26,422 nucleotides of DNA from a virus. Positions within the stretch are counted from its first letter, which is position 1; each line of letters opens with the position of its first letter. Under the pieces are notes generated by a model. It had not been told where the DNA came from. It saw nothing but the letters and a program-made list of their open reading frames with translations, and ran no database searches. The stretch is from positions 1 through 26,422 of IMG/VR virus record IMGVR_UViG_3300036770_000935. One strand, written 5' to 3'. Positions 1 to 17,740 of this stretch are shown in pieces. The position numbers and the translations under genes were made by a program.

Positions 1-179
1 TTGAACGGCCTAATGCCATCAGCATGCGCAGCTTTACGCATTGCCTCATATGCCTGGGCTGCCAACCAGTGCAGCCGACCGTAAGGCCTGATTGAGCGCA
101 GCAGGTATGCCGGTACTTCACCCGGTTTGACGTTTGCTAAATCAGCCGGGAGCCTGACTGGCTTGACTGGCCGGTTCAC
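1..179 (-). CDS. M15-family endolysin, 5' part only (haplotype A copy)
   Basis: This is the first 59 codons and two bases of the peptidoglycan peptidase seen complete at 14923-15534; the rest lies beyond the left edge. The start is GTG (177-179), embedded in a 4-base GTGA overlap with the holin stop, so translation is probably coupled to the holin. The visible residues are identical to the other copy although the DNA differs at about 14 sites, so every change here is synonymous. The zinc-binding motifs fall in the missing part. Identification rests on the complete copy. Confidence 0.85.
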   Translation of the reverse strand, partial: MNRPVKPVRLPADLANVKPGEVPAYLLRSIRPYGRLHWLAAQAYEAMRKAAHADGIRPF

Positions 180-352
180 TTGCGGCCGTACCGCGTGTCT
201 TTAGTGTTTGCCCAGGCGTAAATCATTGGCAGTACTGCTGCGAGCCCGGCTTTGACGGCGTTTGTTAGATCGTAGTCGCTTGTGATAAGCACGGCGACGC
301 TTCCAGCGACAAATGCTTTCAACCAATCTTCGAGCATTGGTGCCCACTTCAT
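176..352 (-). CDS. Small holin-like membrane protein (haplotype A copy)
   Basis: A 58-residue protein. It has a short polar N-terminus, a hydrophobic segment at about residues 10-23, a short acidic linker (SDYDLTN), a second hydrophobic segment at about residues 32-47, and a charged C-terminus. This layout and size match small actinophage holins of the r1t-like type, which open the membrane at lysis so the endolysin can reach the wall. ATG (350-352) shares one base with the stop of the upstream gene (TAATG), and its stop overlaps the endolysin GTG (GTGA). The protein is identical to the copy at 15531-15707 despite five synonymous DNA differences. The family call is inferred from layout and from position next to the endolysin. 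Confidence 0.7.
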   Translation of the reverse strand: MKWAPMLEDWLKAFVAGSVAVLITSDYDLTNAVKAGLAAVLPMIYAWANTKDTRYGRK

Positions 353-549
353 TAGCCCACCAATGCTTTGATTTCGTCGTCGGTAAGACCCAACGCCTTT
401 AGTTTTGTTTGCGCGGATTGAATTGCTGCAATCTTCTTATCAAAAGCTGCTTTATTTTCTGCGACATAAGCACGCTGGGCATCAATTACTGCGATTTCAT
501 CATGTGTCGCGTCCCGTACAACGTCATCGATCTGCACTTTGTAAGTCAT
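352..549 (-). CDS. Receptor-binding-protein partner, variant A (65 aa)
   Basis: A small, charged, probably helical protein directly downstream of the receptor-binding protein gene. The N-terminal part (about residues 1-48) has no visible similarity to its counterpart at 15707-15925. The last 16 or so residues follow a shared pattern (KLxALGLxxDEIKALVG). The start is supported by GAGG five bases before ATG, overlapping the stop of the upstream gene. Small proteins in this position are often tail-fibre assembly chaperones or fibre-associated subunits. Co-variation with the neighbouring fibre gene supports a fibre-specific partner, but no named family is recognised. The function is inference. 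Confidence 0.6.
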   Translation of the reverse strand: MTYKVQIDDVVRDATHDEIAVIDAQRAYVAENKAAFDKKIAAIQSAQTKLKALGLTDDEIKALVG

Positions 550-556
550 GATTTCC

Positions 557-1105
557 TCAATTTCTGTAACCGTAGACGCGAATGGTGCCGCCAGTGATCG
601 TGCCGGTCGACGGCGAAAGTGTAAAACCTGTGTAGCTAGTCGACACGGCGTGGCGACCGTTGGTTGTCCCAGCGATGTCGCCTCGCGTGATTGATGTTTG
701 TAACAATGTTGGTTTCGCTAAAAATGGATTGATTAGCGTCATTTCGAGCGACAATGTGGACGTACCTGCTGCGCCTAAAAACGTCCAGGCTGCCCCATTG
801 TTTGCGCCAACAACGGATGCGGTGGCAGCACCGTATGACGCATAAATTGTCGTGTTGTAATAGGAAGCCGTGCTGCCTGTCAAAATCAAATTGAATTCGC
901 CGTCCGATGCCGAAGCCACACCGCCGGTCACGGTGATTTTGTATGCATCGTAATCGGAGCTAAAAGCGTTTGTGACGGCGACGCTGGAGACTGCGCTGCC
1001 AATCGTGGTCGTTGAAATCAATGTAATGCCAGCTACCGCTGCGAAACTGTCGTTTAGTTGCTGGGCCTCGAGCACGTCTCCGGCGACAAATGTGTGCAAT
1101 GCCAT
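557..1105 (-). CDS. Putative receptor-binding / tail-tip protein, variant A (182 aa)
   Basis: The gene follows the tail-tip gene in the usual place for a host-recognition protein. Residues 1-34 form a conserved anchor (HTFVAGDVL, then AQQLNDSFAAV) nearly identical to the copy at 15925-16473. Residues from about 35 on are unrelated in sequence. The C-terminus again shares a short beta-type ending (TGTITGGTIRVYG) with variant B. The middle is rich in Ser, Thr, Gly and Ala and looks all-beta, as in small trimeric fibre heads. Both variants are exactly 182 residues. A GAGG Shine-Dalgarno (minus-strand GGATGAGGTAACTATG) marks the start seven bases after the upstream stop. The receptor-binding role is inferred from position and variability. 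Confidence 0.65.
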   Translation of the reverse strand: MALHTFVAGDVLEAQQLNDSFAAVAGITLISTTTIGSAVSSVAVTNAFSSDYDAYKITVTGGVASASDGEFNLILTGSTASYYNTTIYASYGAATASVVGANNGAAWTFLGAAGTSTLSLEMTLINPFLAKPTLLQTSITRGDIAGTTNGRHAVSTSYTGFTLSPSTGTITGGTIRVYGYRN

Positions 1106-1112
1106 AGTTACC

Positions 1113-2372
1113 TCATCCTAATACGTTCGTGCTATCCATTACGCCGTATGTCGCATCATCCAATATCAGCTCATACACGATGGTGGTTGGGCTGGTGTAA
1201 AACGTGATCCGATGGCCGGTGGCCACATTGATGATGCCTTGAATGCCCTCAATCGCTAATTCGGTCGCAATTTGGCTGCCTAGCCCCGGTATCTGCTTTT
1301 CCACGCTAATCGTGTCACCAATATCAACAGTGACAATGTCATCCCGTTGCGTGCTGGTCAGCGCAGCAAATGAGGTGCTCACACTGGTGTACCTGGGCTG
1401 TGGGCTGGGCTCGAGCAGGTAGGCGGCCAAATCGTCAATGCTGGTTTGTTCGTGCAGCAAGCTGTTGGTGATGCTGTAATTTTGAGTGAAATATTTCGTG
1501 ATGCTGGTGGCATCGCTGTCGGTTGCTTCCTTGCCATCCAAGCCACGCACATACGCCCGGTTGATTACGTTGTCGGCATCGAACTCAACTTCCACCGCGT
1601 CATATTTGGCCCCGGTGCCGTCATCCTTGAAAATGATTACTGGCGCGCTCAACGTGTTACCAATGCGATTTTGGAATGTGATCGTGCCATCACGTGCTAC
1701 GAACAGTCGGCCCTGCTCAGCCTGATTTATTTGCTGCAAATAAGCAAGCGTGTTGGTGCCCTGGGGCACCGTGTAAGCGCTGTCATGGCCGAGATTGACT
1801 GTGCCAGTAGCAATGCTGGTTGTGCCTTGGTAATCAACCTCAGGAAGGGCTAGCACGCTAGTGATGCGTTGGCCACTGGTTTCGGCAGACACGTTGTACT
1901 CATCAAGCTGGGTTTGCGCAAGTTTGTAGAACTCATCAGCGCATTGCACATTGACAATGTTCGGGCCTGCCAACTGAAAGTCATAGGTGTACCCGGTGAC
2001 TACGCCCACAAACAAATACTCGCCATCACGTGATAGGCGCACGGTACGCATCGGTGCCAGCCCCGGCTCTTGATTGGCTGGATCGTAATAGGGGCTAGTC
2101 GAATCGTATGGTCCGAGGATGCCGGTGTCATCGGTCATTGTGAATGCCATTACGCCTGCACCGAATTGATCATCGGTTTTTTGACGACCGCGTTTGTAAT
2201 TGATATCAGTGGTGTATTGCGTAATGTCAGCAAACTGCGTCAAACCATCCAACACATACGTGGTGTTATCTAGGACTCCGCGTGTGGCATCATCCAACGT
2301 GAACGCCGATACCGGGAAGCCTGTGTCCAGCTCGAGCAGGTAGTCACCTGATTGAACGACTGTAGAACCCAT
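1113..2372 (-). CDS. Minor tail / tail-tip hub protein (419 aa)
   Basis: This large protein lies between the tape measure and the receptor-binding protein, where siphoviruses encode the distal-tail or hub protein that closes the tail tube and carries fibres. An early motif (LDDATRGVLD, about residues 26-35) recurs at the extreme C-terminus (LDDATYGVMD, 404-413). The segment after the first copy, with RGR and then an FxAG pattern (about 61-74), resembles minor tail proteins of small actinophages. ATG shares one base with the tape-measure stop (TAATG). It differs from the copy at 16481-17740 at three residues near the C-terminus (Q/E, I/V, T/S). The exact tail-tip role is inferred. Confidence 0.7.
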   Translation of the reverse strand: MGSTVVQSGDYLLELDTGFPVSAFTLDDATRGVLDNTTYVLDGLTQFADITQYTTDINYKRGRQKTDDQFGAGVMAFTMTDDTGILGPYDSTSPYYDPANQEPGLAPMRTVRLSRDGEYLFVGVVTGYTYDFQLAGPNIVNVQCADEFYKLAQTQLDEYNVSAETSGQRITSVLALPEVDYQGTTSIATGTVNLGHDSAYTVPQGTNTLAYLQQINQAEQGRLFVARDGTITFQNRIGNTLSAPVIIFKDDGTGAKYDAVEVEFDADNVINRAYVRGLDGKEATDSDATSITKYFTQNYSITNSLLHEQTSIDDLAAYLLEPSPQPRYTSVSTSFAALTSTQRDDIVTVDIGDTISVEKQIPGLGSQIATELAIEGIQGIINVATGHRITFYTSPTTIVYELILDDATYGVMDSTNVLG

Positions 2373-3940
2373 TAGGACACCGCGACGTTGATCGGGCCGC
2401 TGCGACGGTTGTACTGTCGCAATGCATCAACAATTACGTCGCCGAGTCGTGCGTCAGCGACAGCTGCATTGACATTGATTGTGACATTGCCCATGCTGCC
2501 CATTCGATTCAATGGGATTACCGCTTCAGGGCCTGCCTCACCGACCACGGCCAATGTCGGCCCGGTAACGATGCCGCCATCAGCCAGACCAGGTATCTTG
2601 CCGATTAGACCGCCTACACCGCCAGCGATAGCACCGCCAACATTCGCTACTTTGCCGATTGCGTCAGCAACTTTGCCAGCAAGATCGAGGGCAGCCGCCA
2701 ACGGATTGATGATGTATTTCTCGAACGCATCCGCCAAAAACTTTGCTGCCGTGCTTACTACGCCAAACTTTTTTTCAAGTATGACAAAACCTGCGACCAA
2801 TCCGGCAACAGCAATAATGACCAAGCCAATTGGGTTGGCGCTCATGATGACATTGAGCAGGGTTTGAGCCACCTGCACTGCAACCAACGTGGCCCGGTAA
2901 ATCTTCATACCAATGTTGGCTGCGACAATTGCCGCCGCCAGACCACCAATCACACCAATGGCAATAATGGCCACGTCTTTGTTTGCCGATAGTGCGCCAG
3001 TAAAGCTGGAGATTAGTTTCACGCCTTTCTCAACGATGGGCAGCAGCACCATGCCAAGCTCTGCCTGTAGATCCTTGAACTGTGCTGTCAAGATGCGTTG
3101 GCTGTTTGCCAAGCCGTCGCTGGTGCGCTCAAAATCGCCCTGGGCATCAGTCGTCGCCTTCATAATCAGCGACTGGGTGGCCAGGGTTTTTTGCTGGGCC
3201 GTCAGTTTGTCGGTCGTACCATCCAGAGCTTTGTTCAGCGATATTTCGGCTTGCTCAAGCTGCAACCGTGTCCGTTGTGCCTCTAGCGAATCCTCACCAA
3301 ACTTGGCGACCGTTTCTTGATTCTTTTGGAATGCGATATCAACCTTCTGCAACGCAATGTTCAGCTTGTCCTCGTTGATTGTCGTTGTGACAAGGCCCAT
3401 AGCCAGCGCCTCGGCTGCTACAGCGTCGGCCGACAGCAGGACACCGAATCGGCGCAGGGGCTCGCTTTCGCCTCGCAGAGCGGCTCCTAGTGCCTGTACG
3501 GCTTCCTCTGGGCTCGTGTTGTTAAACGATGCCAGGTCTGATGCCAGGGTCGTAAAGTCGGTGCTGAATGATGCCAAATCTTGTCCAGTCAGCCCGGCTG
3601 CCTTGCCGAACGTGCCGAACGTGGCTGCCGCGTCGAGCGCCTGCTGGCGTGTCTGACCCAGGGAGGCTGCTGCCGTGTCAGCAAATATCTGCACCTCATT
3701 AGCAGCTTCACCAAAAATCACATTCGTCTTGCTGATGGTTTCATTGAGATCACTGGCCGCCTGCACGGCTGGTACAGCTGCCGCAGTCAAACCACCGAGC
3801 ACTGCGACAGCAGGCACAAAGGATTTCTTGAGTGCAAATTGGGCTTTCTGGCCGGTTGTTTCAAGTTGCTTAAACTCGGCAATAGCCGACTTGATGCCTT
3901 TTCCATCAAACTCGGAGATAATTGGGATTGTTACAGCCAT
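2372..3940 (-). CDS. Tape measure protein (522 aa)
   Basis: A long Ala-rich, mostly helical protein placed after the chaperones, as expected for the ruler that sets tail length and is ejected ahead of the DNA. The N-terminal third is helical with a hydrophobic stretch at about 42-60. Residues about 190-300 are coiled-coil-like and rich in Gln, Leu and Lys. Residues about 325-390 contain two or three strongly hydrophobic segments. A Gly-rich region follows, then the common tape-measure ending ADGGIVTGPTLAVVGEAGPE. At 522 residues it is short for the family. Start and stop are both TAATG junctions with the neighbours, so expression is translationally coupled. Confidence 0.9.
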   Translation of the reverse strand: MAVTIPIISEFDGKGIKSAIAEFKQLETTGQKAQFALKKSFVPAVAVLGGLTAAAVPAVQAASDLNETISKTNVIFGEAANEVQIFADTAAASLGQTRQQALDAAATFGTFGKAAGLTGQDLASFSTDFTTLASDLASFNNTSPEEAVQALGAALRGESEPLRRFGVLLSADAVAAEALAMGLVTTTINEDKLNIALQKVDIAFQKNQETVAKFGEDSLEAQRTRLQLEQAEISLNKALDGTTDKLTAQQKTLATQSLIMKATTDAQGDFERTSDGLANSQRILTAQFKDLQAELGMVLLPIVEKGVKLISSFTGALSANKDVAIIAIGVIGGLAAAIVAANIGMKIYRATLVAVQVAQTLLNVIMSANPIGLVIIAVAGLVAGFVILEKKFGVVSTAAKFLADAFEKYIINPLAAALDLAGKVADAIGKVANVGGAIAGGVGGLIGKIPGLADGGIVTGPTLAVVGEAGPEAVIPLNRMGSMGNVTINVNAAVADARLGDVIVDALRQYNRRSGPINVAVS

Positions 3941-4458
3941 TAGCGAATCAGTCTACGATTTGCTGCGTCAATGATTTGATTGACTAATTTCTGCATGTTG
4001 TCGTTGATTGTGGTTGCGTTGCGTTCATACGCTGGCCACATTCCGCGCGAAGGTTGCCCGTGTTTCCTCATCAAACCTTGAATCATTTTGGCTCCCCAAG
4101 GCGTAAGCGGCATATCTTTTTTGCCTGCCATATCCGCAACTGAGCCGAACGGGCTTTTCATTGTCACGCTGAACACAGCCAAGCTGTTTCCTCGTTTGCG
4201 ATTACTGAATCGAGGAATGACTGATTTGATTACGGCTGATTGATCCCAAGGGCCGATTGGTCGGCCTTTGTACACCCATTTGTACTTGAAACCACTCAAT
4301 GGCATTGGCATGATTGTTCGACGAATGTCATCTACCAATACTTTGACGACTTTTTTGTATTCAGCTTTGATTTCCTTGGCTGTGTCCGGCTCAAGCTTTT
4401 GCAGTTCACGCAACGTTTCTTTTAGGCCGACAATCGTGATGGATGATTCAGCGGTCAC
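3940..4458 (-). CDS. HK97 gp10-like tail completion / neck protein (172 aa)
   Basis: The N-terminus (ITIVGLKETLRELQKLEP, then a charged helix) resembles HK97 gp10-like proteins, which act at the head-tail junction or on the tail. I chose GTG at 4456-4458 because minus-strand AAGAAGG (4465-4471) lies six bases upstream. A TTG six codons earlier would sit inside the frameshifted chaperone sequence without its own ribosome site. The gene overlaps the end of the frameshift product by 11 bases. Its position between chaperone and tape measure is unusual, because gp10-like genes normally lie between the connector and tail terminator. The family assignment is by sequence pattern only. Confidence 0.6.
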   Translation of the reverse strand: MTAESSITIVGLKETLRELQKLEPDTAKEIKAEYKKVVKVLVDDIRRTIMPMPLSGFKYKWVYKGRPIGPWDQSAVIKSVIPRFSNRKRGNSLAVFSVTMKSPFGSVADMAGKKDMPLTPWGAKMIQGLMRKHGQPSRGMWPAYERNATTINDNMQKLVNQIIDAANRRLIR

Positions 4459-4851
4459 GGTTGGCCTTCTTTGCAATCAGCTGAACGGTAGCCAAGTCCT
4501 CCTGATCGAACTGCACATCGGGAGGCCAGTAGCCAGTCACGAACAGCAGCTCCGCTAACTGTCTGCGGATGCTGCCGGTTCCGTAGGGTTTGTCTGCGCG
4601 ACCTCTTGCACGTCAAACGATTCAACGGTGTTGAGCCACGCATCATATTCACGCGATTCTTTCTTGGTGACGGTCAGTTGATGCCAAACCATGAACATCA
4701 AATCGTCGACACCAATGCCGCCCTGGAGATCGCTGATGCGACGCTTGAACTTGCGTTCCCATGCAGCAATGGTGGCAATCGTTGTGGTAATCGTGTCCTT
4801 GACCGATTCCGCTGCCGGTGTCCTGTAAGACACCTGAATCGTTAGTTTCAC
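4448..4851 (-). CDS. Tail assembly chaperone GT, -1 frameshift product (134 aa)
   Basis: The first 89 codons are those of the G-like protein. Slipping back one base at AAACCCT (minus strand, 4585-4591) opens 45 more codons ending at TGA (4448-4450). The heptamer fits X-XXY-YYZ with AAC and CCT as zero-frame codons. The extension contains LAELLFVTGYWPPDV and a Lys/Arg-rich end, which resembles the T part of lambda-like G/GT chaperones. In that system G and GT coat the tape measure and recruit tail-tube protein. The -1 frame has a stop not far upstream, so the extension can only be reached by slipping or separate initiation, and I see no good start. Slip efficiency is unknown. Confidence 0.8.
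4555..4851 (-). CDS. Tail assembly chaperone G (98 aa, zero frame)
   Basis: A small helical protein between the major tail protein and the tape measure, the standard position for the abundant chaperone made without frameshifting. GTG (4849-4851) overlaps the upstream stop as GTGA, and GAGG lies about ten bases before it. The last nine residues after the slip site are low complexity, as expected for a tail of the short form. It probably binds the tape measure during tail assembly. The sequence is too divergent to name a family from the primary sequence, so the call rests on position and the frameshift signal. Confidence 0.8.
   Translation of the reverse strand: MKLTIQVSYRTPAAESVKDTITTTIATIAAWERKFKRRISDLQGGIGVDDLMFMVWHQLTVTKKESREYDAWLNTVESFDVQEVAQTNPTEPAASADS
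4585..4591 (-). promoter_or_regulatory. Programmed -1 ribosomal slip site AAACCCT
   Basis: Read on the minus strand, AAACCCT is a canonical heptamer in the correct phase: AAC begins at 4590, 87 codons after the GTG start. After slipping, both tRNAs can re-pair on AAA and CCC. The zero-frame stop follows 28 bases later. I did not identify a convincing downstream pseudoknot by eye. The same site is at 19953-19959. Confidence 0.8.
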
Positions 4852-5282
4852 GCCGTTACATCCTCAACCAAGGTGCCGCCAACCAGCGTGATTTCAATTT
4901 CGCTGAGTTCGCCAACCGACCCGTTGACCACATCGAGCGCTTCAAGGTAAGCGCCGGTGACCTGGAACTCTGGGTTGGTTGCGCTGATTGCGGCCGACGT
5001 GGGCTTCACTGCGACGTAGCAGCGCGTGCCGACCAAGGCAGTGAGATCGACGTAGGTGCCGGGCGTGGAGCTGTACTCCATCAGCAACGTGGCTGTCACA
5101 GTGACGTTGGTGAGTCCACCGACGAATTGACGGCCGCTGTCACCGAACGATGACTGGTCGAGCGACTCACGCGACTTGGTGATTACCACCGACTTGCACT
5201 GGTCAGTGAGATCAGCCGTGGAGCCCGATGATGCGCCGATTGCGAATGTGGGGCTTGCGAGGTAGGTAGTTGCGACAGCCAT
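4848..5282 (-). CDS. Major tail (tube) protein (144 aa)
   Basis: A beta-rich protein of the right size for a siphovirus tail-tube subunit, which stacks in hexameric rings around the tape measure. Features are an N-terminal Ala/Thr/Ser region, a central segment (SRESLDQSSFGDSGRQFVGG) and alternating hydrophobic strands to the end. It has one of the clearest ribosome sites in the unit: AAGGAG (5292-5297) nine bases before ATG, consistent with high expression. It sits between the tail terminator and chaperone genes, as in most siphoviruses. The call is mainly positional, with a supportive fold-like pattern. Confidence 0.75.
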   Translation of the reverse strand: MAVATTYLASPTFAIGASSGSTADLTDQCKSVVITKSRESLDQSSFGDSGRQFVGGLTNVTVTATLLMEYSSTPGTYVDLTALVGTRCYVAVKPTSAAISATNPEFQVTGAYLEALDVVNGSVGELSEIEITLVGGTLVEDVTA

Positions 5283-5339
5283 GTAACGAATCTCCTTGTG
5301 TTGGAGGCTCGCTGCAAGCCTGTTGGCATTCTAGTAGGT
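5283..5339 (-). promoter_or_regulatory. 57-base leader of the major tail protein with hairpin and strong ribosome site
   Basis: This is the largest gap within the structural block. On the minus strand, 5320-5306 can fold as GGCTT-GCAGC-GAGCC (5-bp stem with one G-T pair, 5-base loop), followed by AAGGAG at 5297-5292. The hairpin lacks a T-run, so it is not a typical terminator. It may expose the ribosome site or stabilise the message for an abundant structural protein. Confidence 0.4.
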
Positions 5340-5690
5340 CTATGGGCTGACTTTTGTGTTGATTGTCAGCTCATACGCCGGGTAGTCGGCTCCACCGTAA
5401 CTGACGGTTGTTGGCCGGGCCTCGGTCAAACCAATCTTGGCTTCACGGATTAAGTCGGCTAGATCGAGCAGCTGGTCAAGCGTGCGGTTGTCGCCGGTGC
5501 CCATACCGACGATGATGACACGGAATTGCATGTCTGCGACCACGTTGGTTTCCACAAAAATCGTCGGTGCCTCGACGATGCAGCAGGGCACGTTGATATT
5601 GCGTGGGTCGTTGAACACTGTCAGCCCGGTAATGGTCTGCAGTTTGGCTACCAGCTGGTCATAGCCAGTCTTAAACAGCGTGTCAGGCAT
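5340..5690 (-). CDS. Tail terminator-like protein (116 aa)
   Basis: A short alpha/beta protein immediately before the major tail protein, where siphoviruses encode the terminator that caps the tube and joins it to the head. Residues 1-30 are helical (TLFKTGYDQLVAKLQTITGL). Strands follow (CCIVEAPTIFVE, FRVIIVG), then a long helix at about 70-87 and two final strands. That order fits the lambda gpU / SPP1 gp17 fold. ATG shares one base with the connector stop (TGATG). No diagnostic motif exists, so the call is mostly positional. Confidence 0.6.
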   Translation of the reverse strand: MPDTLFKTGYDQLVAKLQTITGLTVFNDPRNINVPCCIVEAPTIFVETNVVADMQFRVIIVGMGTGDNRTLDQLLDLADLIREAKIGLTEARPTTVSYGGADYPAYELTINTKVSP

Positions 5691-6322
5691 CAGGCCACCT
5701 GCGGCTTATTGACTCCGAGCAGGCGCAGAATCTGGCCGTAGTTGCCGGTGACCGGGCCACCTGTGGCCAGTGGGTCAAACGATGCAAAAGCTTCGGTCGA
5801 GCCGCGCTCACGGTAAAGAATTGCCGCGTACTGCACGGTGGCAAGCTTGGCATCGCCACCGGGTACCGAGCTCGGGGAGTCAAAATAGCCCGATTCCTGG
5901 CGCTTTCGGTATGCAAATTGGTTAGCTGCGCTGACAGCCATGTTGGCCACATCCAAATCGGCGCTCGGATTGGTGAACGTGTAGCCCAGGTAATCCTCCA
6001 AATCGCCCAGGACAATCCAGCTGCACGTAATGGTGTACGTGACTGTGCCGGAGGCTGTTGCTCGATCAGCGTCATCCGTGGTCAGTGCAAACTGCACCTG
6101 ATTCGGGATGATGGTGTCAGTGTCGTACTGGTAATCGCCTTGCTGCGATACGCCAATGAAGTAATACTCCGGCAGCGCCAAAATCTTGTGCGTGCCATTC
6201 CACGTGGCATTGATGCCACTAATGGTTATTGACTGACCGACCTCAAAGTTGTGAGGCTCAAGCAGTTGAACGATGGCAACGTTACTGACAACCTGCTTAT
6301 GGGTTACCGAGTAAGTTGCCAC
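5690..6322 (-). CDS. Head-tail connector (gp6-like adaptor) with extra N-terminal beta domain (210 aa)
   Basis: From about residue 98 on (SWIVLGDLEDYLG, a helix with AANQFAYRKRQESGYFD, then LYRERGSTEAFASFD) the protein resembles gp6-like head-tail adaptors, which bind under the portal and extend the DNA channel. Residues 1-95 are different: they are beta-rich with a VGQSITISGINATWNGTHKI pattern that resembles small decoration-type modules on phage structural proteins. The start is GTG (6320-6322), with only a weak, distant AGGTGA upstream. Usual gp6-like adaptors are about 100 residues, so this one carries roughly 95 extra. The adaptor call is moderately secure, and the role of the N-terminal domain is unknown. 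Confidence 0.65.
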   Translation of the reverse strand: MATYSVTHKQVVSNVAIVQLLEPHNFEVGQSITISGINATWNGTHKILALPEYYFIGVSQQGDYQYDTDTIIPNQVQFALTTDDADRATASGTVTYTITCSWIVLGDLEDYLGYTFTNPSADLDVANMAVSAANQFAYRKRQESGYFDSPSSVPGGDAKLATVQYAAILYRERGSTEAFASFDPLATGGPVTGNYGQILRLLGVNKPQVA

Positions 6323-6355
6323 CGTTCAATGTCACCTGGAGGGAGTGAACTTGGA

Positions 6356-7426
6356 TCAGGTCCAGTTGACGTAACCGAACTTGGTCGCATCCAGCATCAA
6401 CGTGGCGAAGTAGCCACGGAAGCTAATTTGACGCGCCAGGATGTCCGGCTTCTCAACTGAGACTGCACCTTTTTGCTGCTCGAAGATTTCGAAGCCTGCG
6501 AACTGGCCTGCTGCGCAACCGACGATGAGTCGGTCCGCGCCTGCGCCAGTTGCAAAGTTCTTGTCCACGACCATCGTGAGGCCGAGTGGGTTGCCGTTCC
6601 AGCTGGCCGCGTTTTGCGTGCCTGCTGCGTTGAACGGTCCGACCGAGGGGAACAGTGGGCGGTCTGCGGTGTCAACCAGGCCACCGATCTTGGCCCATGA
6701 TGCCGGGCTGACGAACAAGTGGGTTGGCATGACGTTGCTCGAGGCGCTGATCCAGCGAGCAATTTCGTAGATCTCGGCAACGAGGGTTGTGGCCGAGCCG
6801 TTCCACGTACCACGGTTGGTGGCACCCGAGTACAGCTGGTCTGCCGCGTAGTTGTCGGTCTGATCTGCGTACTGGTTGGCCAGGTCTTGCAGAACGATGT
6901 TGACGAATGCCGGGTCTGACCAGTCGCCAAGTTGTTCAGCGACACGCACCGTGCCACCGAAGGTGAGCTTGGTGACGGTGTTGGATGAGACGACCATCGT
7001 GGTCGAGCTCAACGTGTCGAGCTGGTTGGCCTGTTGAGCGACCGAGCTGTGGGTCGTGATTTCGGGGCGGATGAACGTCGCGCCTGCGGCTGGCATCGCA
7101 CGTGCACCAATGGCCGATACGACTGGGCGCAGGTAGTTGATGTTGTTGTAGACCGGGCCGAGGATGGGCACTGGCAGCAAGCCGGGTGCATCGGTGGTCA
7201 CTTCGTCGCCGGCAGCAGCCTTCAACGGATTGTGGTACGCCTGATGGTCGGCGATCATGCGGTTGACGTTGCGGAATGCATCGCCACCTTGGATGAATGC
7301 CGATACGTATTCGGCGGCCGATGGAAGTCGATCGGGCACGCGACGTGGCTCAGCAAACGTGAGCGCTGTCGGCGCTGCGGCAGGCTTTTCAGCGGCGGTT
7401 GCGGCGCTGGCGGTCTGGTCGGTCAT
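6356..7426 (-). CDS. Major capsid protein from internal in-frame start (356 aa)
   Basis: ATG at 7424-7426 (codon 165 of the fusion) is preceded by AAGGAG at 7436-7441 with a nine-base spacer, one of the two strongest ribosome sites in the structural block. It should give an abundant capsid protein without the protease. The N-arm is short (about 40 Ala/Pro-rich residues before LPSAAEYVSAF), so the usual long delta/scaffold domain is absent. The body has the HK97-fold pattern of an E-loop region, long spine helix and A-domain. Whether the N-arm is cleaved is not visible. Confidence 0.8.
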   Translation of the reverse strand: MTDQTASAATAAEKPAAAPTALTFAEPRRVPDRLPSAAEYVSAFIQGGDAFRNVNRMIADHQAYHNPLKAAAGDEVTTDAPGLLPVPILGPVYNNINYLRPVVSAIGARAMPAAGATFIRPEITTHSSVAQQANQLDTLSSTTMVVSSNTVTKLTFGGTVRVAEQLGDWSDPAFVNIVLQDLANQYADQTDNYAADQLYSGATNRGTWNGSATTLVAEIYEIARWISASSNVMPTHLFVSPASWAKIGGLVDTADRPLFPSVGPFNAAGTQNAASWNGNPLGLTMVVDKNFATGAGADRLIVGCAAGQFAGFEIFEQQKGAVSVEKPDILARQISFRGYFATLMLDATKFGYVNWT

Positions 7427-7918
7427 TGGTTGGGACTCCTTGTCGTTGGACTTGCCTTCGGTCGCTGCAACCTCTGTAATCGTAGCACCCTTGAACGCTG
7501 GTGCCGTGACTAGCGATAACTCTACCCACTCGCCCTTGGAAATCACCATTACGCCTTCGTCGTCGTAACTGAACTCAATCGGGTTGACTCCGACGCTGAC
7601 GGCATCTACTGCCTCATCCTTGATCAGCTCGAGCATGTCGTTGCCTTCGGAGGTGGCGCTGATTCGGGCAGTGAACAGCATGCCTTCCTCAGAATCAAGG
7701 CGGCTGGTCACGATGCCGACTGGTTGCATGTCGTCGTGGTATTTGAGCAGTTTGGGCTTTTTGCCGGTCACTGGCAGGCTGCCTCGAGCGAACTTGACGC
7801 GAGTGCCATCCGAGACGGTGGCTTCTACATCCCAGGGTACGGCTACGCCGGAGATTGTCCTGGGCGATTCGCTTTCTTCAGCGATGATGAATGTTTCGGA
7901 TGCGGTGAGCTTAAGCAT
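6356..7918 (-). CDS. Prohead protease-major capsid protein fusion (520 aa)
   Basis: Residues 1-150 form an HK97-type prohead protease (S78/U35 family) with a plausible triad: H61 in KYHDDMQPVG, S108 in DAVSVGVNP and E133 in WVELSLVTAPAF. Residues from about 165 on form an HK97-fold major capsid protein, including the conserved late segment around VSPASWAKIGGL and the final FGYVNWT. The two halves are usually separate genes. Here one continuous frame encodes both, with an internal start at M165. ATG shares one base with the portal stop (TAATG). The full-length fusion may supply protease, and its N-terminal half may act as scaffold. Confidence 0.9.
   Translation of the reverse strand: MLKLTASETFIIAEESESPRTISGVAVPWDVEATVSDGTRVKFARGSLPVTGKKPKLLKYHDDMQPVGIVTSRLDSEEGMLFTARISATSEGNDMLELIKDEAVDAVSVGVNPIEFSYDDEGVMVISKGEWVELSLVTAPAFKGATITEVAATEGKSNDKESQPMTDQTASAATAAEKPAAAPTALTFAEPRRVPDRLPSAAEYVSAFIQGGDAFRNVNRMIADHQAYHNPLKAAAGDEVTTDAPGLLPVPILGPVYNNINYLRPVVSAIGARAMPAAGATFIRPEITTHSSVAQQANQLDTLSSTTMVVSSNTVTKLTFGGTVRVAEQLGDWSDPAFVNIVLQDLANQYADQTDNYAADQLYSGATNRGTWNGSATTLVAEIYEIARWISASSNVMPTHLFVSPASWAKIGGLVDTADRPLFPSVGPFNAAGTQNAASWNGNPLGLTMVVDKNFATGAGADRLIVGCAAGQFAGFEIFEQQKGAVSVEKPDILARQISFRGYFATLMLDATKFGYVNWT
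7436..7441 (-). promoter_or_regulatory. Internal Shine-Dalgarno AAGGAG for the capsid start
   Basis: Minus-strand AAGGAG lies nine bases before the in-frame ATG at codon 165 of the protease-capsid gene. It interrupts the coding of a charged linker (KSNDKESQP), where sequence is free to change. This supports dual translation from one gene. The repeat copy is at 22804-22809. Confidence 0.75.
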
Positions 7919-9006
7919 TACGCCTCACTTTCGTCATTAGAGGGTAGCCCCCGAGCAGGTGCAGCGTTGTCCTGCTCGGGAGACATGTCGGCTTCCTCCA
8001 GGTAGCTCTCAACGTCGAGGTAAATGTATCGGCCGCGTGGTGTCACGCTGTTTTGGCTGAGTGTCTGTTCGATGCAGTCAATGAATGGCTTGGCACCGAA
8101 CAAATACAAGTCTTGTCGGGCCTGCTGCGCGTTTTGGTACGTCATGCCGGATCCTGATGGTGCGCCAACCAGGTACGGCGGAATGTTTGCGATGCGTGCC
8201 ATTTCTAGTGCTTGGTATGTTCGTGCCTCGGTCAGCTGCAACTTGCTCGGATCCATGTAGGACTCTTTCCAATCCACGTACTGGTTCAACGCAGCAATCG
8301 CATTGTTGTTTCGGGCAGCGGCGAATCCGGCAGCAAGTTCACTCAGTTCCTCGGCGCTCAATGGCTCGCCCTCGGTTTGTTTTAGGACACCGGCTGGAGT
8401 TTGATTCTTTGCAAAGCGCTCAGCGCTGGTATCAAGGTTGATGTTGGTGCGAATTGCTCGAGCGCCCATGCTCAGCAAACCTTGAATTGGGCTCAGGAAT
8501 TGCACTACGTCGTTTGGGTCAAGGCTCAAGCCTTGAAACACAATCTGTTTGCTAGGTCCGTAATACAGTGGCCCAGCCTGATCGAGTGTTTGCACATCGG
8601 CCGCCGGAATCCACGTAAAGGTTGCCGGGAAGCCATTGCCGAATCGGCTGGTCACTACCCAGAATGCGCGACCGTAGAACATCAGGTCATCGGTTGTCCA
8701 GGACATGATGAAATTGCGTGTCGCGTTGGGATCTGGCTGATGAAACCACGTGTCATCGGGCAGGTGCACATCCTCATAGTCCTCACCGACCCACTGCTTT
8801 GAGTACTGGTGGATTTCCAGACAGCCAACCATTGAGCAGATCAGGTCACGTGCCCGGCTAATGGTGGGTATCTGGATTGCCTGCTGGCGGTTAAAATCGG
8901 CTGTGTAGTTGATGAAGTTGCCGACCAATGGGTTGCCGGCAGCGCCAGCCGCGCCAATCTGTGCGTTGGTGGTATTGGGTACTGCGCGCTTTAGTGAGAA
9001 TGCCAT
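7918..9006 (-). CDS. Portal protein (362 aa)
   Basis: An HK97-type portal, the dodecameric ring through which DNA enters and leaves the capsid. Visible family features are an N-terminal region with RARDLICSMVG (about 52-62), the ending of the wing region WTTDDLMFYGRAFWVV, IPAADV, the NDVVQF segment, and the conserved late block IANIPPYLVGAPSGSGMTYQNAQQA. At 362 residues it is shorter than many portals. It lies between terminase and protease-capsid with a 12-base upstream gap and no clear Shine-Dalgarno. The end overlaps the next ATG by one base. The acidic C-terminal tail (EEADMSPEQD, then NDESEA) is a common portal ending. Confidence 0.9.
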   Translation of the reverse strand: MAFSLKRAVPNTTNAQIGAAGAAGNPLVGNFINYTADFNRQQAIQIPTISRARDLICSMVGCLEIHQYSKQWVGEDYEDVHLPDDTWFHQPDPNATRNFIMSWTTDDLMFYGRAFWVVTSRFGNGFPATFTWIPAADVQTLDQAGPLYYGPSKQIVFQGLSLDPNDVVQFLSPIQGLLSMGARAIRTNINLDTSAERFAKNQTPAGVLKQTEGEPLSAEELSELAAGFAAARNNNAIAALNQYVDWKESYMDPSKLQLTEARTYQALEMARIANIPPYLVGAPSGSGMTYQNAQQARQDLYLFGAKPFIDCIEQTLSQNSVTPRGRYIYLDVESYLEEADMSPEQDNAAPARGLPSNDESEA

Positions 9007-9018
9007 CGTGCGAACAGT

Positions 9019-10791
9019 CTAGGCACTCGATGCAATGACTGGCCGGTTCACCATCGGTCGTGGTCGGCTCATCATGCCAACAGCCCACACCAAGCATCGT
9101 GCCAACTCAATCGGTCCCGATGATTTCTGTGATGACAACGCGATAGCGCCCGGAGTGCGTACAGCCACAGCTCTACCGACATGCTCAGCCAGCATTGTCT
9201 CCCCAGTGTGCGCAACACGACCCTCATTGATCAGGTTTTTGACCATTGATGTGTACCGGGTGATCTCCTGGTAGCCGACCAGCACCCTGCGACGTTGCAG
9301 ATCGGAGGGGCAGTTGGTGTCCAGTGTCGGCGTGATAGCAACTTGCAAGCCTGAGTTGGAGGCCAACTGAGCCCGAATGTTATCCCATACCTGTGTCACT
9401 GTTTCGCACATGAATGCGACAGTCGCAGTCAGCATCCCAGCAGTATTCGCGTTGACACGTACAGCCACGTATCGGCCATCGTCGAGCGAGACTTCCACGG
9501 CGAGCACGCCGCCCGGCGATGGTGGCAAGTCGGTAGCAAGTGATTCCCACCGCCCAGGCGGCAGCCACGACAACTCTGATTGCACCCATAGGTTCACGCT
9601 AGAACGCAGAAATCCAGCCCTGTTCGGGCCTTTGGCTTCGGCCTGAACTGTGCGTATGTCGAGCGTGTGCCCGAGCGCCGGGTTGGCGTACTCCCACGCA
9701 GCCTCGGTCATCGGATCCAGTTCAGGTGGTGGACTGTATTCAGCCAGGTACACCGAATTGGTGACTTCACCTGAATCAATCGCACGCAAGCCCTGCTCAC
9801 GCCACCTGAGCATCGCAATACTGTCTTCCGTGCCTGCGGTGCTCCACATCGAGCACAACGGATTCGGCCGGGCACGCTGAGTCGGCAGCAAACCAATGTC
9901 CAGTGTCTCGGAGTCAATACCGAACACTTCGTCAGCAATGATCAGGTCAACAGACATACCGTGACCACTCGATGGCCTGGCTGCTTTGACATACCACTTC
10001 GAGTCACCAACTTTGATGCTGTTACGGCCATAAGCCCACACAGCTTTGACACCAGCCTTTTCCTCAATGATCGGTGCCAGGTCTTGAAATAGCGCTGTGG
10101 CTAGATCCAGCCGGTGAGCTGTACTGAGAATGGTTTGTGGCCCGGCCGTCAGCGAGTACTTCAGCAGCCACCACGACAGCAGACTCTTGAGCGCTACTGT
10201 CTTTCCGTTTTGTCGACTGACACTGACAAGTGAAACGTGGTTGAGGAACCTCCCTTGAGCATCCACGGCAAGTTGACCGTTGAGAACATGCCTCTGCCAG
10301 GGCATAAGCTCCACTCCGAGAATACGCTGAGCCCAATCTGCAACTTCGGGCCCATAGCTTCCGGCAGCATCCTTGATGATCGTTTCGATTCGCGGCAGGT
10401 CATGACCTTTTCCTTTTCGCTCGGGCTTTGTCTTTTCGGATAACGAGAAGGATGGGCGCGGGGTGAGGGGTAGACGTTCATCCAAAAACGCTTTCGGCTT
10501 TTGCTTTGGTTTGGCTTTGCTTTGGGCAGGTGGCCGGTGTCCGGGTCGTCGGGCTTGCGTTGCTCTCTGCTTTGCTGCTTTGTAGTTGGCTCCGCGTCGC
10601 GCATTGCATTCCTTGCAGGCCGGCACCAAATTGTCCAGGTCATCCGTGCCACCTCGGTCAATCTCAATGATGTGATCTGCTTCGGTGGCTTGCCTGCGTT
10701 TGCACCAATGGCATCGGGGTTTGTCTTGGAGTACCACCCCCCGGTTTTTGTAGTACTGTTTTGACCGTACCCGGGTCTTTTTGCTTGGCAT
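9019..10791 (-). CDS. HNH endonuclease-terminase large subunit fusion (590 aa)
   Basis: Residues about 20-68 are an HNH nuclease: zinc-site C27/C30 and C59/C62, D39-H40, GGTDDLDNL with N54, and CN at 62-63. A basic, Pro/Lys-rich linker (about 75-128) follows. Residues about 135-420 are the terminase ATPase, with a Walker-A-like SRQNGKT (192-198), Walker B VDLIIADE (281-288, D287/E288) and a coupling motif STAG (317-320). The remainder is an RNase-H-like nuclease region starting at LAVEVSLDD (E433, D437, D438). It packages concatemeric DNA into the prohead through the portal. HNH proteins often sit beside terminase at cos sites, but here both are in one chain. No clear Shine-Dalgarno precedes ATG. 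Confidence 0.92.
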   Translation of the reverse strand: MPSKKTRVRSKQYYKNRGVVLQDKPRCHWCKRRQATEADHIIEIDRGGTDDLDNLVPACKECNARRGANYKAAKQRATQARRPGHRPPAQSKAKPKQKPKAFLDERLPLTPRPSFSLSEKTKPERKGKGHDLPRIETIIKDAAGSYGPEVADWAQRILGVELMPWQRHVLNGQLAVDAQGRFLNHVSLVSVSRQNGKTVALKSLLSWWLLKYSLTAGPQTILSTAHRLDLATALFQDLAPIIEEKAGVKAVWAYGRNSIKVGDSKWYVKAARPSSGHGMSVDLIIADEVFGIDSETLDIGLLPTQRARPNPLCSMWSTAGTEDSIAMLRWREQGLRAIDSGEVTNSVYLAEYSPPPELDPMTEAAWEYANPALGHTLDIRTVQAEAKGPNRAGFLRSSVNLWVQSELSWLPPGRWESLATDLPPSPGGVLAVEVSLDDGRYVAVRVNANTAGMLTATVAFMCETVTQVWDNIRAQLASNSGLQVAITPTLDTNCPSDLQRRRVLVGYQEITRYTSMVKNLINEGRVAHTGETMLAEHVGRAVAVRTPGAIALSSQKSSGPIELARCLVWAVGMMSRPRPMVNRPVIASSA

Positions 10792-10797
10792 GGGGGA

Positions 10798-10989: not shown

Positions 10990-11003
10990 GTTGTCAAGGT
11001 TAC

Positions 11004-11084
11004 TTAGGCAGAGTGCCCCCGGGCTCCATCCCGACCGTTGTTGAAGCACGGTTCACACTCGCCACACGATGGATCTGTTCGCAT
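11004..11084 (-). CDS. Possible 26-residue Cys-rich ORF
   Basis: ATG at 11082-11084 opens a short frame with CxxCxxC near the start (PSCGECEPCF), ending 14 bases before the zinc-ribbon start. A purine-rich stretch (GGGCAGGGCAG) precedes it but is not a clear Shine-Dalgarno. Tiny Cys-rich peptides occur in actinophages, but at this length the frame could be chance. Confidence 0.25.
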   Translation of the reverse strand: MRTDPSCGECEPCFNNGRDGARGHSA

Positions 11085-14824: not shown

Positions 14825-15002
14825 TGTCGTGATCCTCCAGGTGGTTGTCAATCTTGCGTTCCACCCTACTCAATATCTTGCGCACGTATGCGTGATCGTC
14901 GGCGTTTTCTCGCCGGGCACGCTCAATCAGGATTGCAGGCAGGACAGCCGCCGACACAATGGCAACGGCACTGATTAGGGCTACGTAGATTTCTGTCGGC
15001 AT
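14778..15002 (-). CDS. DUF2746-like small membrane protein (74 aa)
   Basis: One transmembrane segment (about residues 5-25, YVALISAVAIVSAAVLPAIL) followed by a charged helix with the ERARRENADDH and IDNHLEDHDNG patterns found in DUF2746-like proteins of actinophages, which lie beside lysis genes. The only plausible start gives an 80-base overlap with the end of the endolysin in another frame. It may be a second lysis membrane protein (antiholin or holin partner). Function in this family is not established. Confidence 0.6.
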   Translation of the reverse strand: MPTEIYVALISAVAIVSAAVLPAILIERARRENADDHAYVRKILSRVERKIDNHLEDHDNGTTRRNTAKTKQSG

Positions 15003-15534
15003 GAGTGTCCAGCCATTGCTGCACTCTGGCTGGTATTGATTCTGCCTTGAAATATCGAATGTGCCACGGTTCGGCCCCGGATCGGAACTCCCAGCAGAAT
15101 CCGAAGCTCAGGCAGTTGGCTTCCATCCATTCCAGGCGCTTTCCTGAAGCCTCAAAGATGTCAACGGCCAAGCCCAAATTGTGCGTAGAAGTGCCAGGCA
15201 CAGCCATCGGGGCCAGCCCCGGCTTCAGGTAATACTTTTGCCCTTTGTAAATCCTGATGGATTTGCTGTTGCTGATTGGTGCTGTGGTGTACCTAGCTAG
15301 AAACCCTCGCTCCTGGGTTGCCAAATCGCGATACGTGTCACCGACACTGGTGGGCTTGAATGGCCTGATGCCATCAGCGTGCGCAGCTTTACGCATTGCC
15401 TCATACGCCTGGGCTGCCAACCAATGCAGCCGACCGTAAGGCCTGATTGAGCGCAGCAGGTATGCCGGTACTTCACCTGGTTTTACGTTTGCTAGATCAG
15501 CCGGGAGTCGTACCGGCTTGACTGGCCTGTTCAC
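14923..15534 (-). CDS. M15-family endolysin, VanY/L-Ala-D-Glu peptidase-like (203 aa)
   Basis: The zinc-peptidase pattern SxHxxGxAxD is present at 116-125 (H118, D125), and EPWH at 155-158 supplies the catalytic E155 and third ligand H158. Such enzymes cut peptide stems of peptidoglycan and serve as phage endolysins. The N-terminal 110 residues look like an alpha-helical extension. The C-terminus (QCRCHCVGGCPAC, 188-200) has five Cys and is encoded where the next gene overlaps in another frame. GTG 15532-15534 overlaps the holin stop (GTGA). No signal peptide is seen, consistent with holin-dependent release. Confidence 0.85.
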   Translation of the reverse strand: MNRPVKPVRLPADLANVKPGEVPAYLLRSIRPYGRLHWLAAQAYEAMRKAAHADGIRPFKPTSVGDTYRDLATQERGFLARYTTAPISNSKSIRIYKGQKYYLKPGLAPMAVPGTSTHNLGLAVDIFEASGKRLEWMEANCLSFGFCWEFRSGAEPWHIRYFKAESIPARVQQWLDTHADRNLRSPNQCRCHCVGGCPACNPD

Positions 15535-15707
15535 TTGCGGCCGTACCGCGTGTCTTTAGTGTTTGCCCAAGCGTAGATCATTGGCAGCACTGCTGCGAGT
15601 CCGGCTTTGACGGCGTTTGTTAGATCGTAGTCGCTTGTGATAAGCACGGCGACGCTTCCAGCGACGAATGCTTTCAACCAATCTTCGAGCATTGGTGCCC
15701 ACTTCAT
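15531..15707 (-). CDS. Small holin-like membrane protein (haplotype B copy, 58 aa)
   Basis: Same protein, residue for residue, as at 176-352: two hydrophobic segments around a short polar turn and a charged end (KDTRYGRK). ATG 15705-15707 shares a base with the upstream stop (TAATG), and its own stop overlaps the endolysin start. Together with 14923-15534 this is a compact holin-endolysin pair. Confidence 0.7.
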   Translation of the reverse strand: MKWAPMLEDWLKAFVAGSVAVLITSDYDLTNAVKAGLAAVLPMIYAWANTKDTRYGRK

Positions 15708-15925
15708 TAGCCCACCAGTGCTTTGATTTCGTCGGCTGATAGGCCGAGCGCGGCAAGTTTGTTCAATGCGGCCTGGCGTGCAGCTTGCTTTGAGGCTTCA
15801 GCTTGCACTAGAGCCTCATTCTCTGCCTGCTGTGCTTGCCATGCAACATGTTCCGCATCGGTCATTTCTCGATCAATTACTTTGCCTGTGGCCGTGTCGT
15901 GAATGCGAATGGTTGGTTTGCTCAT
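15707..15925 (-). CDS. Receptor-binding-protein partner, variant B (72 aa)
   Basis: Counterpart of the gene at 352-549. The N-terminal 50 residues differ completely (IRIHDTATGKVIDREM, then an Ala/Gln-rich helix), while the end is shared (LAALGLSADEIKALVG). The DxxTGKVIDREMTDAEH pattern recalls small tail-fibre accessory proteins, with a helical C-terminus. ATG shares one base with the stop of the receptor-binding gene (TAATG), whereas variant A has a seven-base gap and its own GAGG. The role as fibre chaperone or subunit is inferred. Confidence 0.6.
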   Translation of the reverse strand: MSKPTIRIHDTATGKVIDREMTDAEHVAWQAQQAENEALVQAEASKQAARQAALNKLAALGLSADEIKALVG

Positions 15926-16473
15926 TACTTGACTCCGTAGATTTTGACGGTTCCTGCGCTAAACGTTCCCGCGCTGGGCGCGAATGTAATCGAACTAATA
16001 GCTGTCGTGGAGAAGTATGAACCTGCACCGTAATACACGCCTTTTGCGCCGTTATCAGTGTCCATGTAACCGTAAGAATGCCACGCTTTCATAGATGACC
16101 CGGCATAGTTGGGAATAGTTATCGCTTGAAAGTTGTCTTGTTGCGACGTGCCTTCGACCCACCCGGTTAGTTCGTAGGTGCTCTCTTGGGCTTGTGTTGT
16201 CGTGCCAACGCGGTGACGCTGATATTGCGAAATGTAGTTGCCGCTTGTCGTGTCGGCGTTCATGTAGCCACGCAAATAAGCGTTGCTTGATGCGTACCAT
16301 TTTTCAACAGTGATGAACAGCGTGTTGTACGTTTGATCGATATTGGTGACTGCGGTAGTTGCACCAGTCAATGTCGTTGTGCTCAATAAGGTCATGCCGC
16401 CGACAGCTGCAAAACTGTCGTTCAATTGCTGAGCCAGGAGCACATCTCCAGCTACGAATGTGTGCAATGCCAT
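15925..16473 (-). CDS. Putative receptor-binding / tail-tip protein, variant B (182 aa)
   Basis: It shares the anchor of variant A (residues 1-34, with four or so substitutions) and has an unrelated middle rich in Tyr, Ser, Thr and Gln, including aromatic clusters (LFITVEKWYASSNAYLRGY). The ending AGTFSAGTVKIYGVK is a beta motif common at the C-terminus of small phage fibre proteins. The ribosome site GAGG before ATG is the same as in variant A. The difference from variant A probably alters host range. Confidence 0.65.
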   Translation of the reverse strand: MALHTFVAGDVLLAQQLNDSFAAVGGMTLLSTTTLTGATTAVTNIDQTYNTLFITVEKWYASSNAYLRGYMNADTTSGNYISQYQRHRVGTTTQAQESTYELTGWVEGTSQQDNFQAITIPNYAGSSMKAWHSYGYMDTDNGAKGVYYGAGSYFSTTAISSITFAPSAGTFSAGTVKIYGVK

Positions 16474-16480
16474 AGTTACC

Positions 16481-17740
16481 TCATCCTAATACGTTGGTGG
16501 AGTCCATTACGCCGTATGTCGCATCATCCAATATCAGCTCATAGACGATGGTGGTTGGGCTCGTGTAGAACGTGATCCGATGGCCGCTGGCCACATTGAT
16601 GATGCCTTGAATGCCCTCAACCGCAAGCTCCGTAGCAATCTCGCTGCCTAGCCCCGGTATCTGCTTTTCCACGCTAATCGTGTCACCAATATCAACAGTG
16701 ACAATGTCATCCCGTTGCGTGCTGGTCAGCGCAGCAAATGAGGTGCTCACACTGGTGTACCTGGGCTGTGGGCTGGGCTCGAGCAGGTAGGCGGCCAAAT
16801 CGTCAATGCTGGTTTGTTCGTGCAGCAAGCTGTTGGTGATGCTGTAATTTTGAGTGAAATATTTCGTGATGCTGGTGGCATCGCTGTCGGTTGCTTCCTT
16901 GCCATCCAAGCCACGCACATACGCCCGGTTGATTACGTTGTCGGCATCGAACTCAACTTCCACCGCGTCATATTTGGCCCCGGTGCCGTCATCCTTGAAA
17001 ATGATTACTGGCGCGCTCAACGTGTTACCAATGCGATTTTGGAATGTGATCGTGCCATCACGTGCTACGAACAGTCGGCCCTGCTCAGCCTGATTTATTT
17101 GCTGCAAATAAGCAAGCGTGTTGGTGCCCTGGGGCACCGTGTAAGCGCTGTCATGGCCGAGATTGACTGTGCCAGTAGCAATGCTGGTTGTGCCTTGGTA
17201 ATCAACCTCAGGAAGGGCTAGCACGCTAGTGATGCGTTGGCCACTGGTTTCGGCAGACACGTTGTACTCATCAAGCTGGGTTTGCGCAAGTTTGTAGAAC
17301 TCATCAGCGCATTGCACATTGACAATGTTCGGGCCTGCCAACTGAAAGTCATAGGTGTACCCGGTGACTACGCCCACAAACAAATACTCGCCATCACGTG
17401 ATAGGCGCACGGTACGCATCGGTGCCAGCCCCGGCTCTTGATTGGCTGGATCGTAATAGGGGCTAGTCGAATCGTATGGTCCGAGGATGCCGGTGTCATC
17501 GGTCATTGTGAATGCCATTACGCCTGCACCGAATTGATCATCGGTTTTTTGACGACCGCGTTTGTAATTGATATCAGTGGTGTATTGCGTAATGTCAGCA
17601 AACTGCGTCAAACCATCCAACACATACGTGGTGTTATCTAGGACTCCGCGTGTGGCATCATCCAACGTGAACGCCGATACCGGGAAGCCTGTGTCCAGCT
17701 CGAGCAGGTAGTCACCTGATTGAACGACTGTAGAACCCAT
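16481..17740 (-). CDS. Minor tail / tail-tip hub protein, second copy (419 aa)
   Basis: Equivalent to 1113-2372. Three residues near the C-terminus differ (E, V and S here), and the DNA up to 16642 carries about 16 differences. From 16643 on the copies appear identical. The LDDATxGVxD motif is at both ends. Confidence 0.7.
   Translation of the reverse strand: MGSTVVQSGDYLLELDTGFPVSAFTLDDATRGVLDNTTYVLDGLTQFADITQYTTDINYKRGRQKTDDQFGAGVMAFTMTDDTGILGPYDSTSPYYDPANQEPGLAPMRTVRLSRDGEYLFVGVVTGYTYDFQLAGPNIVNVQCADEFYKLAQTQLDEYNVSAETSGQRITSVLALPEVDYQGTTSIATGTVNLGHDSAYTVPQGTNTLAYLQQINQAEQGRLFVARDGTITFQNRIGNTLSAPVIIFKDDGTGAKYDAVEVEFDADNVINRAYVRGLDGKEATDSDATSITKYFTQNYSITNSLLHEQTSIDDLAAYLLEPSPQPRYTSVSTSFAALTSTQRDDIVTVDIGDTISVEKQIPGLGSEIATELAVEGIQGIINVASGHRITFYTSPTTIVYELILDDATYGVMDSTNVLG

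Follow-up and report, generated by a model that had tools for sequence, protein, structure and literature searches.

The DNA analyzed here, which we call the window, is a 26,422-base virus record from IMG/VR; it comes from a small, probably aquatic phage. On the minus strand, the window carries genes for a tail protein (419 amino acids), a putative receptor-binding protein (RBP; 182 amino acids), a small partner protein (65 or 72 amino acids), a probable holin (58 amino acids), and a VanY-like endolysin. This order is found twice (Table 1), since positions 15356–26422 repeat positions 1–11055 (MAFFT alignment of the two copies). In other words, the record is a phage genome of about 15.36 kb that was assembled 1.72 times. 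A related contig, L003 (15,367 bp), goes round the same circle of genes a single time, and its ends overlap by 14 bp; together with the repeat, this overlap indicates that a genome of about 15.36 kb was walked 1.72 times. (The stated length of the record overstates the genome size.)

Table 1. Features of the locus, in window coordinates.
Feature	Position	Strand	Basis or remark
Tail protein, 419 aa, copy A (upstream edge)	1113..2372	-	PHROG 5313, E = 2e-15; weak Prophage_tail match below cut-off
Tail protein, 419 aa, copy B	16481..17740	-	3 residue differences from A (367, 374, 385)
Putative RBP, haplotype A, 182 aa, ends TGGTIRVYGYRN	557..1105	-	ORF; AlphaFold beta-rich domain, pLDDT 91.6
Putative RBP, haplotype B, 182 aa, ends SAGTVKIYGVK	15925..16473	-	ORF; AlphaFold pLDDT 86.7; identical in L081
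RBP A conserved N-terminus, residues 1–34, FxAGxVL..QLN motif	1004..1105	-	88% identical to B
RBP A C-terminal strand, residues 168–182, GTITGGTIRVYGYRN	560..604	-	Mean pairwise identity 0.79 in the tail/holin-anchored sample
RBP B C-terminal strand, residues 168–182	15928..15972	-	Sequence; AGTVKIYGV invariant in alignment A2, partly biased by search patterns
Partner, haplotype A, 65 aa, KVQIDDVVRDAT... / ...LKALGLTDDEIKALVG	352..549	-	ORF; homologues beside RBPs in many loci
Partner, haplotype B, 72 aa, TIRIHDTATGKVIDREMTDAE... / ...LAALGLSADEIKALVG	15707..15925	-	ORF; 51% identity to A over 67 columns
Partner A type-specific N-terminus, residues 1–20	490..549	-	Co-varies with RBP C-terminus; residues 1–13 have identity 0.71 within type
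Partner A shared C-terminal module, residues 48–65	355..408	-	Residues 53–65 have identity 0.75; similar module on unrelated N-termini
Partner B type-specific N-terminus, residues 1–26	15848..15925	-	RIHN type
Partner B shared C-terminal module, residues 55–72	15710..15763	-	Alignment
Probable holin, copy A (downstream cassette edge)	176..352	-	Weak PHROG holin match, E = 0.04
Probable holin, copy B	15531..15707	-	Protein identical to copy A
VanY-like endolysin, complete copy	14923..15534	-	PF02557, E = 5e-14
VanY-like endolysin, second copy, partial	3-179		
Tract differing between copies	1..1274 vs 15356-16642		MAFFT of two copies

All differences between the two copies lie within one tract (Table 1), and the other 9.8 kb of the repeat is 100% identical. 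Linked SNPs run through the holin and endolysin genes to the edge of the window. The tract also takes in about 55 codons at the end of the tail gene, and its left side lies beyond the window's left edge. Because the record is a 1.72-fold walk of one genome, the best and simplest reading is that the two versions, which we call haplotypes A and B, are alleles from two co-occurring strains that were joined by assembly. Haplotype B is confirmed by an independent contig, L081, which is identical to it across the 2.2 kb that surround the cassette. A search for a second contig with haplotype A found none, and near-identical records may lie outside the searched set. Elsewhere, 51 of the 52 SNPs between L081 and the window fall in a patch of about 1 kb (13976–14940) that covers a 350-residue ORF and its neighbors; it looks like a separate recombination patch.

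The nearest annotated relative of the tail protein is from Pontimonas phage phiPsal1, and that of the endolysin is from Actinomycetia phage DSL-LC01. These similarities hint at a host among the Actinobacteria. A search for relatives of the tail protein in GTDB genomes, which might have identified the host, found none. Two other ORFs in the window are of note: in a 590-residue ORF (9019–10791), the large terminase has an HNH endonuclease domain fused at its N-terminus, and a 520-residue ORF (6356–7918) has a prohead protease (Peptidase_S78) at its N-terminus, with the major capsid protein probably in the same ORF.

The putative receptor-binding protein and its partner

As the first-pass annotation of this locus described, the RBPs of both haplotypes have 182 residues, keep the same first 34 residues (30/34 identical, or 88%), and share a C-terminal motif (GTITGGTIRVYGYRN in A and GTFSAGTVKIYGVK in B). 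Residues 1–34, which contain an FxAGxVL..QLN motif, are presumed to be the docking part; a similar motif is found across relatives. (Residues 1–20 have low confidence in both AlphaFold models.) The bodies had been called unrelated, and a global alignment of residues 35–165 indeed scores no better than shuffled sequences (z = -0.14), but they are better described as diverged than as demonstrably unrelated. Profile-profile comparison of the last 140 residues (hhalign) gives a probability of 92%, or 30% without the C-terminal 18 residues, while glycine-rich and TITVMEV bodies give under 1% in the same comparison. Also, the AlphaFold models of RBP A and RBP B have nearly the same strand order. The two bodies probably have one common fold, as judged from these models and profiles. 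(We discarded an earlier hhalign score for the bodies, which was inflated by shared N-termini and by a misplaced sequence, L172.)

The position of the 182-residue protein and its fold matches suggest that it binds a receptor: some of the matches to RBP A in BFVD are named tail-fiber proteins (best E = 1e-19). We found no credible sequence homologues of the RBPs in the PDB, and a fold search of the PDB with both models gave nothing significant; the best match for RBP A, itself non-significant, was the tripod of the Tuc2009 RBP (E = 7e-3, TM 0.27).

In most of the loci that we examined, the gene directly downstream of the fiber or RBP gene encodes a small partner, whose size ranges from about 37 to 110 amino acids across types. 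The first-pass annotation considered the N-termini of the two partners in the window to be unrelated. This is incorrect: BLASTP aligns residues 2–65 of A with residues 13–72 of B (51% identity, E = 1.5e-10), and profiles of the N-termini by themselves also match (hhalign, 94%). By these alignments, partners A and B are homologues over their full length. Similar C-terminal modules (KLxxLGLTxDEIxALxG) are also found on N-termini that are unrelated, beside other types of RBP strand (for example, in L308, L363, L367, and L374). A search of the PDB with partner B found no credible homologue of solved structure.

The junctions between the two genes are as originally noted, with a 7-nucleotide gap in A (TGA-GGAAATC-ATG) and a TAATG overlap with the RBP gene in B. 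Junction style goes with type: 35 of 39 RIHN partners, which is the type of partner B, start at -1 or +1 relative to the RBP gene. Another arrangement is seen in L123 (at about 4511–4535), where the partner apparently starts at an ATG within the RBP's conserved VYGY codons (TATGG), so that its start overlaps the RBP gene. Such internal starts are likely in L087, L128, L142, and L143 as well.

Pairing of types among relatives

We scanned IMG/VR with six anchors (the tail protein, RBP A, RBP B, the holin, partner B, and partner A) and took from each locus the RBP and the gene that follows it. This gave 331 RBP-partner pairs, almost all of which come from uncultivated viruses. The tail-anchored and holin-anchored sets are unselected with respect to the RBP and the partner, and our main test rests on them. 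We typed each RBP by the residues at its C-terminal end and each partner by those at its N-terminal end. These classes were drawn up with the motifs of both proteins in view; the Mantel tests described below are independent of them.

The table of RBP type by partner type for the 331 pairs is nearly block-diagonal, and the pairing is almost one-to-one. For instance, RBPs ending in YGV(K/N) have RIHN partners in 36 of 36 cases, versus 3 of 90 for other YG-type RBPs (126 nonredundant pairs), and in the full set, two of those three exceptional loci retain an AGTVxIYG strand. GGTIRVYG strands are followed by a QIDD partner in 61 cases, a QIGD partner in one, and no recognizable partner in three; for GxYRVYG strands, the partner is of the QIGD type in 12 cases and of the NDNG type in 6, and in no case of the QIDD type. 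Across 86 nonredundant tail- or holin-anchored loci, the adjusted mutual information (AMI) between RBP type and partner type is 0.81 (null mean 0.00, maximum 0.12). In the same comparison, the AMI for the RBP's N-terminus is 0.32–0.36. The linkage that the first-pass annotation expected between RBP type and partner type is thus strong at the level of types. (One apparent mismatch, in L271, was due to a wrong reading frame.)

The two types also change together. When we compared loci with tail proteins of 85% identity or more, both types differed in 78 pairs of loci and the RBP type alone in 0; in 10 pairs, the coarse RBP type is kept and the partner subtype is different. We conclude from these comparisons that the RBP and partner genes are exchanged together as matched pairs. 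This joint replacement agrees with the original description of an exchanged unit that spans both genes, although the boundaries of the exchange are wider than that description had them, reaching from the end of the tail gene through the endolysin to the edge of the window.

The pattern is not confined to this group of phages. YGV(K/N)-RIHN pairs are also present on contigs as long as 37 kb, where the RBPs have other N-termini. Among cultured marine phages, HTVC023P, Bellamy, and CRP-207 (L394, L397, and L398) have a glycine-rich fiber-like protein that ends in a GGSG(I/V)V-type strand and is followed by a MAHF/MAHY-type gene, which is annotated only as hypothetical; P-RSM4 is an exception to this pairing. 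We did not find RBPs or partners of the window's own types in cultured phages by tblastn, a search whose low-complexity filter may have cost sensitivity.

Four contigs with type A RBPs (L144, L149, L153, and L154) have no recognizable partner anywhere on the contig, while the same search succeeded for 7 of 7 positive controls. Two of these contigs are incomplete (L149, 5.7 kb; L154, 13.7 kb), and in the other two, a small holin-like protein directly follows the RBP. So, a partner is not universally required nearby. In two other loci, a second RBP-like gene lies directly after the first (after 4478 in L084 and after 4472 in L161), and in L161 there is a partner-like frame further on, at 5722.

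Where the match lies

Of all the segments that we compared, the C-terminus of the RBP and the N-terminus of the partner are the most strongly associated (Mantel r = 0.69; 45 nonredundant tail-anchored loci). There is little or no linkage to the flanks: in the same loci, r is -0.05 for the partner's C-terminus versus the holin and 0.18 for the tail protein versus the RBP's N-terminus. Holin and partner are unlinked (r = -0.05 to -0.09). The C-terminus of the RBP and the N-terminus of the partner are adjacent in the DNA, so part of their linkage could be due to hitch-hiking.

Comparisons within type A, the commonest type, separate the body from the strand. There, the RBP body is uncorrelated with the N-terminus of the partner (r = 0.06 in RBP-anchored loci and -0.05 in partner-anchored loci), while the last 15 residues of the RBP have r = 0.28 and 0.27, respectively. 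Since bodies and partners assort freely within this type, the partner appears to be matched to the C-terminal strand of the RBP and not to its receptor-binding body. Also, reshuffling occurs inside the type and does not cross types. Nevertheless, the within-type argument is not uniform: for the GxYRVYG and YVRFKV types, co-variation with the partner extends to RBP residues -45 to -15, and the unselected type A set (n = 17) shows no significant within-type correlation. (When loci from different search anchors were pooled, the within-type Mantel test gave r of about 0 between strand and partner, which is an artefact of the mixture; the values above come from tests on each anchor separately.)

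Patterns of conservation were measured on tail/holin-anchored loci because the 34-sequence alignment A1 is biased by search patterns. In type A RBPs (n = 17 unselected loci), the last 15 residues are the most conserved (0.79), and residues ~93–152 are at only 0.24–0.36. In the partners from these loci, the two ends are conserved (0.71 and 0.75) and the Ala/Glu-rich middle is poorly conserved (0.29).

These results modify the claim of the first-pass annotation that the two proteins must match each other. They are exchanged as matched types, but the annotation placed the match in the body of the RBP instead of the C-terminal strand, and that they must match is something we infer. On free assortment, which the annotation had set against its own reading, the result is split: RBP and partner types do not assort freely, but partner variants and RBP bodies do so within a type.

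We propose that the RBP and its partner are a host-recognition cassette that moves as a unit, and that the partner is a miniature fiber chaperone or tip cap whose N-terminus recognizes the type of the RBP's terminal strand. We consider this fairly probable. The RBP would begin with a docking segment, continue as a beta-sandwich-like body, and end in a beta-strand, and the partner's N-terminus would contact this strand directly. The C-terminal module, which is the shared part of the partner, would be helical and is probably for oligomerization. Recombination in the similar sequences of the flanking tail, holin, and endolysin genes would replace the whole cassette. By analogy, the partner most likely works like gp25 of phage Pam3 or like Tfa. 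Our proposal would explain how host-recognition parts are swapped as a unit between near-identical backbones while leaving fiber assembly intact. It would also give a function to small hypothetical genes beside fiber genes in aquatic phages, and a rule of thumb for which fiber pairs with which partner. More tentatively, any body with the right last ~15 residues might be pluggable, if the terminal strand is read by interchangeable N-terminal docking elements on a common C-terminal module in many aquatic tailed phages. If such a modular recognition code exists, then many hypothetical small genes could be predicted to be fiber partners.

We also considered that the pairing reflects only hitch-hiking. 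The partner might have nothing to do with the RBP (it could be a lysis accessory that belongs with the holin), and the two would travel together if recombination finds homology only in the flanks. The linked segments are indeed only tens of bases apart, the tail, holin, and endolysin genes are similar enough for homologous exchange, and recombination in the flanks would still explain part of the linkage. However, hitch-hiking alone seems unlikely, as partner type follows the C-terminus of the RBP and not the adjacent holin, and bodies are reshuffled against partners within type A while types are not crossed. Furthermore, the same pairing is seen in phages whose RBP N-termini and contig sizes differ, and glycine-rich fibers of cultured marine phages other than P-RSM4 also adjoin MAHF/MAHY-type partners. 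An artefact of assembly, with A and B being a chimera of two strains and no cassette having been swapped, would fit with a contig that contains 1.72 genome units and with the lack of a second contig for A. We consider this very improbable, given that L081 independently confirms B with its flanks, that both haplotypes carry correctly typed pairs, and that L003 and L004, whose tail proteins are 91–92% identical, carry other intact pairs. Two other sources of variation were rejected: apart from the two genome copies, we found no direct repeats of 40 nucleotides or more, which argues against a target of a diversity-generating retroelement, and there are no pairs of inverted repeats of at least 40 nucleotides, as would be expected for an invertible fiber cassette (like the G segment of Mu).

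If the partner does act on the RBP, it might instead stay on the virion as a structural subunit of the tip (an adaptor or a second adhesin, for example) and not be a transient chaperone. An exact match to the C-terminus of the RBP would be expected in that case as well, and a passage in PMC10579305 cites TfaMu as remaining bound to the Mu fiber. Still, a tip subunit is doubtful: the Ala/Glu-rich and poorly conserved middle of the partner is unlike an adhesin, some partners are as short as about 37 amino acids, and gp25 of Pam3 was undetected in mature virions (PMC9608196).

Comparison with known fiber-chaperone systems

Tfa of phages Mu and lambda and gp38 of the T-even phages are each encoded by a small gene directly after the fiber gene and are specific for the distal part of the fiber (for Tfa of Mu, see PMC9608196). 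The partner gene has the same placement. Unlike those proteins, it matches no such model in Pfam or PHROGs: for partners A and B and four other types, we found no match to Tfa, Caudo_TAP, or chaperone families at E ≤ 1, so we do not file the partner among Tfa-type families.

The arrangement is also like that of gp24 and gp25 of Pam3, a freshwater phage with a small single-protein fiber, where the fiber gene is followed by the chaperone gene (PMC9608196). In gp25, a variable N-terminal domain binds the fiber and a conserved helical C-terminal domain trimerizes (PMC9608196); the partner seems to have a parallel layout, with a variable N-terminus and a conserved C-terminal module, as seen from sequence alone. 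On the other hand, gp25 has 162 amino acids, a beta-sandwich N-terminal domain, and a Tfa-like C-terminus, while the partners have about 37–110 amino acids and no detectable similarity to Tfa. Also unlike Pam3, the partners in the window are paired with RBPs that are not glycine-rich.

In the Alteromonas phages A5 and V22, the fiber and its cognate chaperone have been transferred together between unrelated phages (PMC10579305, PMC7289586), so co-transfer of fibers and chaperones is already established (PMC10579305). For our locus, the type linkage and the joint replacement likewise point to cognate specificity and co-transfer. Models of the A5 and V22 complexes join beta-strands of the fiber and the chaperone in one sheet, and the authors propose that the two proteins co-evolve (PMC10579305). 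Dependence on the chaperone varies between the A5 and V22 modules (PMC10579305, PMC7289586), and our type A RBPs that lack a partner resemble the chaperone-independent fiber of A5 (PMC10579305). But A5 and V22 have two variants of one homologous pair, while we see about ten types of strand against about a dozen types of partner N-terminus, many of them on one backbone. What our comparisons appear to add is that the partners can be much smaller, that their typing follows the RBP's terminal strand in about ten types, and that the body is free to vary within the commonest type.
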